From an uncultured Pirellula sp. (GTDB lineage Bacteria; Planctomycetota; Planctomycetia; Pirellulales; Pirellulaceae), in assembly GCA_903837255.1 (NCBI GenBank), contig CAILTZ010000396.1, positions 1 through 11,025 of the forward strand: DNA of 11,025 bases. Reading direction: 5' to 3'. Every line of letters begins with the position of its first letter. The stretch's first letter is position 1. A model generated the notes under the pieces. It saw only the letters and a program-made list of their open reading frames with translations. It did no database searches and was not told the origin of the DNA. This document shows positions 1 through 2,048 of the stretch, one piece after another. The translations under genes were made by a program, and so were the position numbers.

Positions 1-563
1 ACGATGTCTGCACCCAGATCCAGAGGTCTTAGGATGCAAGGTGGAACGAAGGTGCTGTCGACGGCCAGCAGAACTCCGGCCTTGCGCGTTACGGCAGCGA
101 TTTGCTCGAGGTCTGGAACGCTCATGAGCGGGTTTCCGATCGACTCGACCCACACCATCTTGGTTTCTGGGCGGATCGCCTCGGCAATATGATTCGCATC
201 ATCGGCATGGACCAAGGTGACGGAGATATTGTTTCGATTGCAGATTTTATGGAGCAATCGATACGTGCCCCCATACATGTCACAGCCTGCTACGATGTGC
301 GAACCGGATTGCAAAAGCCCCACAGCGCAGTGGGTGGCAGCCATTCCGGAGGCAAAAGCTAGCGAGCCGGCGGCTCCTTCGAGGTCGGCGATCGTCTTTT
401 CGACTCTAGCCCTCGTGGGTGAACCGCTGCGGGAGTAGTCAAACGTTCCCCAATCCCCAGGTCCGGGTTGAACGTAGGTGGTCGATAGATAAATCGGGGG
501 TACCACCGCGCCGGTGGAATCCGGTTCGCTGCCGATGTGGATGGCTCGTGTTCGAAATTTCAT
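1..563 (-). CDS. Cys/Met-metabolism PLP enzyme (cystathionine gamma-synthase/lyase family), 3' end cut by window edge
   Basis: Transsulfuration enzyme of fold-type I PLP proteins. This family makes or cleaves cystathionine, or acts on O-acyl-homoserine or methionine, in the cytoplasm. I see 187 complete codons from ATG at 563 (MKFRTRAIHIGSEP). Family landmarks in order: VPPIYLSTTY (21-30), the cofactor-phosphate motif YSRSGSPTR (43-51, where the usual Asn is Ser), FASGMAA (70-76), YGGTYRL (97-103), the ESIGNP variant of ETPTNP (140-145), and VDSTFVPP (168-175), which has the PLP-pyridine Asp but Ser for the usual Asn. The catalytic lysine lies beyond the window. Its ATG overlaps the stop of the preceding PLP gene as ATGA, and AAGGA lies about 11 nt upstream, so the two are probably translationally coupled. 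Whether it is a beta-lyase, a gamma-lyase or a sulfhydrylase cannot be decided from this half. Family assignment is secure; reaction is open. Confidence 0.9.
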   Translation of the reverse strand, partial: MKFRTRAIHIGSEPDSTGAVVPPIYLSTTYVQPGPGDWGTFDYSRSGSPTRARVEKTIADLEGAAGSLAFASGMAATHCAVGLLQSGSHIVAGCDMYGGTYRLLHKICNRNNISVTLVHADDANHIAEAIRPETKMVWVESIGNPLMSVPDLEQIAAVTRKAGVLLAVDSTFVPPCILRPLDLGADI

Positions 564-1780
564 AGGCTGGGTCTTCCTTCGTTGGTTGCTTCGAGAGCTT
601 GGCGCAAGTCCTCGATCAGATCGTCGGTGTCTTCGATACCGACAGCCATTCGGATCATGTTATCGTAGATCCCGAATTGGGCGCGCTGCTCGGGTGGGTA
701 ATCGAAGTAGCTCATGACCAGCGGCTGTTCGATCAAGCTCTCGACGCCTCCGAGGCTCGGGCCGATGCGAGGGATCTTGCACCGATCGATGATCGCGGCC
801 GTCTGCTGCCAATCGGCATCTTTGATTAAGAACGTGACGAGCCCGCCGTATCCCTTCATCGTCTTTTTGGCGATCGTATGCGAGGGATGCGAGGCTAGTC
901 CGGGGTAGAAAACCTTTTCAACGCGTGGGTGATTCTCTAGAAACTCAGCAATCTTCTGACCATTGTGGTTGTGCCGTTCCATGCGCAATGCGAATGTCTT
1001 CAAGCCCCGTTCGAGCAGATACATGTTGTGAGGCGAATTGATCGAGCCGAGGATTCCTCGAAGTTTTCGGACCGGCTCAAGCTTTTCTTTCGAGCCACAG
1101 ATGACACCTGCGAGCAGATCGTTGTGGCCTCCCATGTACTTGGTCGCCGAATGCCAGACGTAATCGACTCCCCACTCGATCGGCTTGAGGTTGTAGGGGG
1201 TGGCCAACGTCGAGTCGATGAGCGTCTCGACTCCGGTCCGTTTTCCGATCGCTACGAAGGCTTCCAGGTCGATCACCGACAGGTGAGGGTTGGTGGGTGA
1301 CTCGCTGACGATCATCTTGGTCTTGGGATTGATGGCCGCTTGCATGGCATCCATGTCCCCGGTTTTGACTTGGTGGGTGACCACACCGAATCGGGAAAGA
1401 TGCTTGAGGCAGAATTCGCGGCTGCGGTGGTAGCATTGGTCGAAAAAGATGATTTCGTCGCCTGCGGATAGTTTGCACATGAGCAAGCCGACGACGGCGG
1501 CCATACCGCTCGAGTAGATGATCGCATCCTGGGCACCTTCGAGGGCCGCGAGTTTGCGTTCGACGACTTTCTCGTTGGGGTTTCCGTAGCGGCCGTATTC
1601 TTCGCGATCGTGGTTCTCGCGCAGGTAGTCCAGGATCGATTGGGTCGACTCGAAGGTATAGGTCGACGAGCAACAGATCGAATCGGTGATCGCGTCGTTG
1701 GGTTTCTGGCGAGCTTCGCCAGCATGGACGCTCTGGGTACCAAAACCGAGCTGGCTGTTTGGATTCGAAGACGATGTCAT
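560..1780 (-). CDS. metB: Cystathionine gamma-synthase, plant-like (PLP enzyme)
   Basis: Probably condenses an activated homoserine with cysteine to form cystathionine, the first step of transsulfuration to methionine. 406 aa, close to the family length. Motifs (numbered from ATG at 1780): YGRYGNPN (62-69), YSSGMAA (89-95), SESPTNP (159-165), IDSTLATP (188-195), and the PLP lysine K214 in HSATKYMGGHNDLLAG. The C-terminal half (YPGL.SHP.H.IAKK, PSLGGVES, QPLVMSY, EDTDDL) follows plant cystathionine gamma-synthase as I remember it more closely than E. coli MetB. Plant enzymes use O-phosphohomoserine and bacterial ones usually O-acylated homoserine; the substrate here is unknown. The frame stays open to an ATG at 1888, but those 36 extra residues are low-complexity and lie in the leader, so I prefer 1780. 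Neither start has a clear Shine-Dalgarno. The stop overlaps the next PLP gene. Other reactions of the family remain possible. Confidence 0.85.
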   Translation of the reverse strand: MTSSSNPNSQLGFGTQSVHAGEARQKPNDAITDSICCSSTYTFESTQSILDYLRENHDREEYGRYGNPNEKVVERKLAALEGAQDAIIYSSGMAAVVGLLMCKLSAGDEIIFFDQCYHRSREFCLKHLSRFGVVTHQVKTGDMDAMQAAINPKTKMIVSESPTNPHLSVIDLEAFVAIGKRTGVETLIDSTLATPYNLKPIEWGVDYVWHSATKYMGGHNDLLAGVICGSKEKLEPVRKLRGILGSINSPHNMYLLERGLKTFALRMERHNHNGQKIAEFLENHPRVEKVFYPGLASHPSHTIAKKTMKGYGGLVTFLIKDADWQQTAAIIDRCKIPRIGPSLGGVESLIEQPLVMSYFDYPPEQRAQFGIYDNMIRMAVGIEDTDDLIEDLRQALEATNEGRPSL

Positions 1781-1925
1781 GGAAAGCAAAGGGAGCTGAG
1801 GTGAAGATCGAAATTCTGTTGCGAGCAGAGTTCGCAGCGAGCGAGCAGCGTTTGCAACGAGCGATCCGAGACAACGGACATCGGTCAAACTCGAGTGTCG
1901 TTGGTAGCGAATGGCTCTTTAGCAG
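1781..1925 (-). promoter_or_regulatory. Leader between the candidate aptamer and metB (possible expression platform)
   Basis: 145 nt of probable untranslated leader. It contains a possible hairpin in which GTTGC (1858-1854) pairs with GCAAC (1822-1818), enclosing a GC-rich segment with the octamer GCGAGCAG repeated at 1821-1828 and 1841-1848 (plus-strand reading). No U-tract follows, so this is not a standard intrinsic terminator. An in-frame ATG at 1888 would turn most of it into an N-terminal extension of the synthase. I see no other gene. Confidence 0.3.
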
Positions 1926-2048
1926 TGAGGCTGCAATCGGCCGCAAATCCCTGATTGGACGGGTAATTGTAATCGCAACTGGGCTGATCAGCAAGTCTTG
2001 CAGTTGCCGGGTTCCAACGATGTCTCGGTCCCTCAGGCGACCACCTCA
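1926..2048 (-). promoter_or_regulatory. Candidate SAM-riboswitch-like (S-box clan) leader RNA
   Basis: Read on the minus strand, this stretch holds sequences like the SAM-I core in the right order: GAGGGACC (2034-2027), GGAACCCGGCAAC (2015-2003), a distal stem AACTG/CAGTT (2005-2001 with 1981-1977), then TACAATTACC (1971-1962). Possible helices: closing stem TGAGG (2048-2044) with CCTCA (1930-1926); GGTC (2042-2039) with GGCC (1942-1939); a bulged P2-like stem pairing GCC (2038-2036) with GGC (2008-2006) and GGG (2032-2030) with CCC (2011-2009); and a short CCC/GGG stem (1963-1961 with 1951-1949). It lies about 150 nt before the cystathionine gamma-synthase start, where a SAM sensor would be expected. 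The P2 stem does not copy the SAM-I kink-turn exactly, so it could be a SAM-I/IV variant, another RNA, or chance. Pairings were drawn by hand. Confidence 0.5.

Follow-up and report, generated by a model that had tools for sequence, protein, structure and literature searches.

How is the expression of two sulfur amino acid genes controlled in a planctomycete of the genus Pirellula? The window, by which we mean the whole analyzed stretch of 11,025 nt, poses this question on its minus strand, where a gene without a Pfam match (E ≤ 0.001) ends at 2056 and is followed by a 275-nt intergenic gap, a metB-like gene, and a second PLP gene, the start of which shares the letters ATGA with the metB stop. 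Both PLP genes belong to PF01053 (Cys/Met metabolism), in agreement with the original prediction for this locus; none of the best 25 NCBIfam matches of the metB-like gene reached its cut-off. The same prediction proposed a divergent member of the SAM-I/SAM-IV riboswitch clan at 1926-2048, based on three short minus-strand words resembling SAM-I strands. These words (GAGGGACC, GGAACCCGGCAAC, and TACAATTACC) do stand in the proposed order, inside the gap.

Membership in the SAM-I/SAM-IV clan was not borne out. Covariance searches with RF00162, RF00634, and RF01725 gave no match at E ≤ 10 in 1780-2160, and nothing in Rfam release 15 reached its gathering score anywhere in the window. Six Rfam matches at E ≤ 10 fell in 1780-2160, with no SAM family among them, and the weak matches over the predicted interval (AniS, snoRNA families, and Cardiovirus_CRE) were so far under their cut-offs that they were taken as chance. 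RF00162 likewise had no match at E ≤ 10 across the genome assembly of the window, which is 83% complete. The fold of 2060-1915 is not more stable than that of shuffled sequences (z 0.33), and a search of 146 genomes of the order for the three words as an exact pattern returned a single genome, that of the window. Neither GAGGGACC nor GGAACCCGGCAAC has a counterpart in four close relatives (L063 to L066) that were aligned upstream of 1956 and whose MetB proteins are 90 to 91% identical. Lacking a model match, a stable fold, conservation in related planctomycetes, and any occurrence of the pattern outside one genome, the SAM-I/SAM-IV assignment was rejected. The block that is conserved across the leaders of relatives lies at 1954-1913, so that the interval proposed originally holds the 5′ two thirds of what we describe below as a SAM-II-type aptamer and leaves out its 3′ third.

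This block emerged from a DNA search of 100 genomes of the family with 2060-1900, which returned a repeated match of about 40 to 65 nt beside metB, centred on 1955-1911. The metB leaders of the fetched loci carry AGGGAUUUGCGGCCGNUUGCAGCCU and, a few nucleotides further on, CUGCUAAAGAGCC. Leaving aside two misread loci (L062 and L079), the distance from the GGG to the extrapolated MetB start ranges from 39 to 451 nt; in the window, 132 nt separate the 3′ strand of helix P2a from the metB ATG. A strict pattern fixing all 13 nucleotides of the core extracted 55 distinct sequences (alignment A1), in which 28 of 42 columns are invariant, partly because the extraction pattern imposed it. The covariance model R1 was built from A1 with the P2 pairs only. 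A looser set of 79 distinct rows (A2) keeps two weak matches, the second ones in L067 and L050, as gap or unpaired cells. The features of the window are collected in Table 1.

Table 1. Features of the metB leader and the adjoining genes in the window, with the evidence for each
Feature	Position	Strand	Evidence
Word 1 of the original prediction, GAGGGACC	2034-2027	-	Sequence read
Word 2, GGAACCCGGCAAC	2015-2003	-	Sequence read
Word 3, TACAATTACC	1971-1962	-	Sequence read
Likely promoter -35 box TTGCTG, 17-bp spacer	1994-1989	-	Position in relatives; 3 of 6 letters match TTGACA
Likely promoter -10 box TACAAT, inside word 3	1971-1966	-	Position in relatives
Compact SAM-II-type aptamer, 42 nt	1913..1954	-	R1 66.6 bits (with the window among the source sequences of R1); conservation in the metB leaders of the family
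P1 5′ strand AGG	1950..1952	-	Pairs A1952-U1928, G1951-C1929, G1950-C1930
L1 GAUUU (SAM-II G8, A9, U10-U12), third strand of the binding triplex	1945..1949	-	Alignment A1
P2a 5′ strand GGC	1940..1942	-	Pairs with GCC 1915-1913; paired in 99.6% of A2 cells (A2 was fitted to these pairs)
P2b 5′ strand UUGCAG	1931..1936	-	Pairs with 1925-1919 around bulged U1921
P1 3′ strand CCU	1928..1930	-	Pairs with 1952-1950
P2b 3′ strand CUGCUAAA (GCUAAA = SAM-II G42-A47)	1918..1925	-	Alignments A1 and A2
Hairpin after the aptamer, no U tract, candidate expression platform	1872..1903	-	Alignment with close relatives
metB-like gene (cystathionine gamma-synthase/methionine gamma-lyase group), ATG 1780 to stop 560	560..1780	-	PF01053, 423.7 bits
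Second gene for a PLP enzyme of Cys/Met metabolism, truncated at the edge of the window	1..563	-	PF01053, 204.2 bits on 3-563

At E ≤ 1e-6, R1 detects the element in 95 of the 142 genomes searched in the order, under 18 family labels; at E ≤ 0.1 the count rises to 99, the extra four being weak. A further family label (f8) shows no R1 match better than E 0.05 among its genomes listed, while the 18 other labels have strong ones; 23 genomes of this search, outside the listing, gave no match. Across the phylum, at least 17 of 392 genomes have a match at E ≤ 0.01, a lower bound, as 16 candidates were scored per genome; two of these 17 matches (L112 and L113) lack the core. Three weak matches in one genome (L155 to L157, G513), having neither UUGC nor GCUAAA, were rejected. 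The 97 strong R1 matches were reduced to a set of 94 loci by removing one on a short contig (L090) and two copies of other loci (L095 of L029 and L107 of L070). R1 contributed 28 of the 94 and DNA similarity 14, the rest having come mainly through MetB. A MetB motif lies within 1,500 nt downstream in 87 loci and other searches added three, so the element precedes metB in 90 of 94, a proportion biased by the many loci that were fetched through MetB. Among the 28 loci obtained by R1 only, MetB follows in 24; the other four (L108 to L111) stand before another open reading frame.

All 12 pairs of the predicted pseudoknot (P1 plus P2) can form in the window. Over A2, 98.4% of cells pair, and in P2b, whose UUGC corresponds to SAM-II U20-C23, every cell that holds letters is paired (100%). 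Changes on both sides are confined to the outer P1 pair (10 cells), which has AU in 49 cells, CG in 5, UA in 5, GU in 2, no pairing in 14 (14 of 75 when the 4 gaps are left aside). Covariation within the order therefore gives weak support, as P2 hardly varies. In A1, L1 GAUUU is invariant except for its A, which is nearly so, the UUU being fixed by the extraction pattern; CUGCUAAA, also fixed by the pattern, is invariant in A1 and is kept in 77 of the 79 A2 rows.

The core of this element matches that of SAM-II. Thirteen nucleotides (U10-U12, U20, U21, G22, C23, G42, C43, U44, A45, A46, and A47) are described as completely conserved in SAM-II riboswitches in a passage of PMC3764141, and all 13 are present in the window, at 1947-1945, 1936-1933, and 1923-1918. 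They occur in 55 of 55 A1 rows, where the pattern fixed them, and in 77 of the 79 distinct A2 rows; the two rows without the full core are chance-level matches of 15.6 and 13.5 bits. The segments GAUUU, CGGCC, UUGCAG, and GCUAAA and their strand order match the RF00521 (SAM-II, SAM_alpha) consensus, which has GGC and GCC at the places corresponding to P2a, and a methionine-pathway gene lies downstream as in SAM-II. The differences lie in the size of the parts. Contiguous P1 pairs number 2 to 4 in 82 of 94 compact elements versus 6 in the consensus, the stretch up to GCUAAA is 4 to 6 nt in most compact elements versus 11 nt, and L1 is three nucleotides shorter. Counted to CUGC, L3 measures 2 to 4 nt in 74 of 94 loci, 0 to 7 nt in 92, and 30 and 33 nt in two; counting to GCUAAA adds two nucleotides. 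P1 and L3 are thus reduced in parallel, which would be expected of an L3 that spans P1. The SAM-II long-loops family (RF01726) shares the core, and its loops are longer than those of the compact elements except for L3 of L070 (33 nt) and L073 (30 nt). By eye, these two long L3 loops (L070:2759-2831 and L073:968-1037) could hold a hairpin of their own.

The window copy itself matches neither RF00521 (gathering cut-off 36 bits) nor RF01726, even at E ≤ 10, and was therefore filed as a SAM-II variant and not as an RF00521 member. The link to the family is provided by intermediates. The four loci without MetB (L108 to L111), from another class of the phylum, have a P1 of 5 to 6 pairs and an L3 of 6 to 7 nt. 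R1 scores them at 42.3, 42.3, 42.3, and 36.8 bits, and at the same places RF00521 gives 34.6, 36.3, 28.9, and 30.1 bits, L109 alone being above the cut-off; their RF01726 scores of 25.7 to 27.3 bits are under its cut-off of 44. Further away, R1 aligns in register with the metA SAM-II riboswitches of Sinorhizobium meliloti and Rhizobium (15.3 bits each) and gives 7.7 bits to that of a Shinella, low scores in all three cases; RF00521 scores the same three at 81.6 to 86.7 bits. At least five elements of the family appear among RF00521 matches at the exact place, at 15.3 to 20.5 bits (E 0.07 to 1.1), a chance level at which only the coincidence of place counts: at E ≤ 10, RF00521 has matches in 95 of 100 family genomes and in 13 of 14 control genomes. 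Other weak RF00521 matches in family genomes (L082 to L086) score 21.0 to 25.6 bits; of these, L083 and L085 at least are contained in long open frames. Taken together, these comparisons make a strong case for the SAM-II class.

RF00521 rises above its cut-off in 1 of 100 genomes of the family and 1 of 384 of the phylum, in contrast to the 95 of 142 genomes of the order found by R1. The reason why Rfam misses the element is probably a P1 of about 3 pairs in place of 6, together with a short L3; in the structure line of RF00521 only P1 is paired, so that a short P1 would cost detection. By this account, members with a short P1 would escape the standard SAM-II model because it does not treat the conserved pseudoknot helix as paired.

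Upstream of the aptamer, a promoter-like layout recurs at a nearly fixed distance. The arrangement TTG-N3-N16..18-TANNNT, ending 8 to 19 nt before the aptamer GGG, was found in 71 of 94 loci (the window among them), whereas shuffling the last 60 nt gives an expectation of 0.68 (counts that ignore shared ancestry). In close relatives, TACACT or TAAACT aligns with TACAAT of the window and TTGATG with TTGCTG, and the third word of the original prediction thus likely holds the -10 box of a promoter. A strict sigma-70 scan of the window alone found no promoter in 1700-2100, so the claim is founded on position in relatives. Transcription would start near 1959, leaving the first two words outside the transcript, and the distance from the promoter would place P1 at its extreme 5′ end. 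The layout is missing from 23 loci, including L108 to L111. Among nine of these exceptions, the pair lies 44 to 50 nt upstream in seven (L020, L028, L060, L068, L074, L036, and L077) and 115 nt upstream in one, and one has none. Some of those seven are labelled Rhodopirellula or Rubripirellula, and in several of them an inverted repeat is visible by eye between promoter and aptamer. The window has an inverted repeat of its own, CAACTG (2006-2001) and CAGTTG (1981-1976), on the minus strand around the palindrome CTGATCAG and overlapping the -35 box; it was not seen in the four close relatives and is possibly an operator or a chance occurrence.

Downstream of the aptamer, a hairpin with a U tract lies between element and gene in 47 of 94 leaders versus 1.8 expected from mononucleotide shuffles. 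The other 47 have no such terminator, and neither has the window leader in a scan of 1700-2100. Its hairpin at 1903-1872 recurs at the same place in close relatives, with -8.6 kcal/mol in the window and -12.3 to -18.1 kcal/mol in five relatives. Within the first 14 nt of the terminator, GCCGC occurs in 28 of the 47 versus 5 of 155 other terminators in the loci (shared ancestry uncorrected). This 5′ arm is complementary to GCGGC in L1, and the terminator 3′ arm GCGGC copies the L1 strand. In nine examples picked for the pairing, the duplex of L1 with the arm has -11.8 to -15.4 kcal/mol versus -15.5 to -23.5 kcal/mol for the terminator hairpin, which is the more stable in all nine. A Watson-Crick stretch of at least 5 nt between L1 and the terminator arm is present in 22 of the 47 versus 37 of 155 control terminators, and does not exceed 4 nt in 25 of the 47. 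Terminators with arms able to pair with L1 suggest an OFF switch at the level of transcription. SAM-II riboswitches are reported, in passages of PMC2258182 and PMC6061858, to be mostly transcriptional in output, which fits a model of strand exchange with a terminator.

On the evidence of conservation, position, pairing potential, homology to RF00521 through intermediates, and terminators in half of the leaders, we interpret 1954-1913 on the minus strand as a compact SAM-II-type aptamer located at the 5′ terminus of the transcript of the metB operon, which would act as a SAM-bound OFF switch in leaders with a terminator; we put the probability of this reading at roughly 0.86. The most likely role of the element is to sense S-adenosylmethionine and turn off the methionine-pathway genes that follow it. 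The original idea of a SAM riboswitch before a planctomycete transsulfuration operon would hold by homology, although its class and its place were wrong.

We infer the transcription start, SAM binding, the direction of switching, and the antiterminator pairing from sequence, and propose the following mechanism. SAM would bind in the major-groove triplex formed by L1 and P2b (GAUUU, UUGC, and GCUAAA) and fix the pseudoknot in place, its P2a helix (GGC:GCC) included. Where a leader has a terminator, L1 (GCGGC) would then be kept from the terminator 5′ arm (GCCGC), the terminator would form, and metB would be off; without SAM, L1 would pair with the GCCGC arm and transcription would run on. A broader hypothesis, to which we give about even odds, is that these elements constitute an order-wide compact subclass of SAM-II of a Pirellulales type, defined by an aptamer of about 42 nt with a 3-bp P1, a very short L3, and a position at the extreme 5′ end, and by terminator arms that copy the P2a strands, so that aptamer and terminator would exchange strands directly. 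If this is true, few natural SAM aptamers would be as small, and it would follow that the aptamer can do without the greater part of P1 and of the A-minor contacts between P1 and L3.

Four other explanations of the conserved block and its surroundings were considered. A SAM-V riboswitch, or another pseudoknot with a SAM pocket that is not SAM-II, is highly improbable. Its appeal is that the binding cores of SAM-V and SAM-II are reported as almost identical in a passage of PMC6061858. However, RF01826 is absent at E ≤ 10 from the window scans and from a scan of 15 loci that does return RF00521 and RF01726 for the intermediate loci, the P2a 3′ strand reads GAGCC in place of a Shine-Dalgarno-like purine run, and half of the leaders contain terminators, which are reported for most SAM-II riboswitches and not for SAM-V. 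The chance that a divergent SAM-I/SAM-IV-clan riboswitch occupies 1926-2048, alone or in tandem with the SAM-II-type element, is slimmer still. Such tandems do exist, seven in one order and two in the other according to a passage of PMC9481103, and the three words resemble SAM-I strands by eye and stand in order; against this weigh the missing model matches and conservation described above, the overlap of the words with the likely promoter, whose box within the third word keeps a near-fixed distance in 71 of 94 loci, and the position of the segment upstream of the predicted transcription start.

Very high conservation and closeness to the promoter would also suit an operator in the DNA immediately after the promoter, bound by a methionine repressor. 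We consider this as remote as the SAM-I/SAM-IV reading, since the sequence is asymmetric, L3 varies in length (up to the 30 and 33 nt of two loci), some changes in P1 are paired, and the model of an RNA family matches the intermediate loci. As the element is open in one frame of the window, a conserved leader peptide is conceivable; all three length classes modulo 3 are represented among the elements (49, 27, and 18 of 94), and each frame contains a stop in 51 to 82 of the 94 loci, which led us to reject this explanation and to assign it almost no probability.

With the SAM-II-type reading, the locus fills a seemingly empty niche, the control of methionine genes in a large planctomycete order: a compact SAM-II-type element before metB is widespread in this order and is missed by Rfam. 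SAM-II is reported from alpha- and gammaproteobacteria and Bacteroidetes in PMC2258182, and RF00521 appears in a section of PMC3101246 on an alphaproteobacterium. We found no earlier description of the compact element in the open-access texts covered (PMC2864571, PMC3764141, PMC2258182, PMC6061858, PMC9481103, PMC3101246, and PMC13273304). A "Rhodopirellula-1" motif is listed for Proteobacteria and Planctomycetes in PMC2864571, with one mention in the main text, and the compact element may be identical to this motif. The alignments provide a seed with which the SAM-II family could be extended, and a minimal aptamer with which to gauge how far P1 and L3 are needed for SAM binding.

Other arrangements of SAM-II elements were observed in the phylum. 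In L108 (1501-1549, minus strand), L109, L110, and L111, a strong terminator stands directly behind the SAM-II element and is followed by a gene for a protein of about 170 aa. The L108 protein has no Pfam match, and a protein search returned 10 proteins including itself, the named ones being planctomycete hypothetical proteins. In the genome G144, L081:2735-2950 holds a canonical SAM-II riboswitch (RF00521 39.5 bits), then a terminator-like hairpin recognized by eye, followed in tandem by another copy resembling SAM-II (2888-2928, R1 11.0 bits); the tandem precedes an open reading frame of about 137 aa that has no Pfam match. The same genome also carries a compact element before metB (L091).
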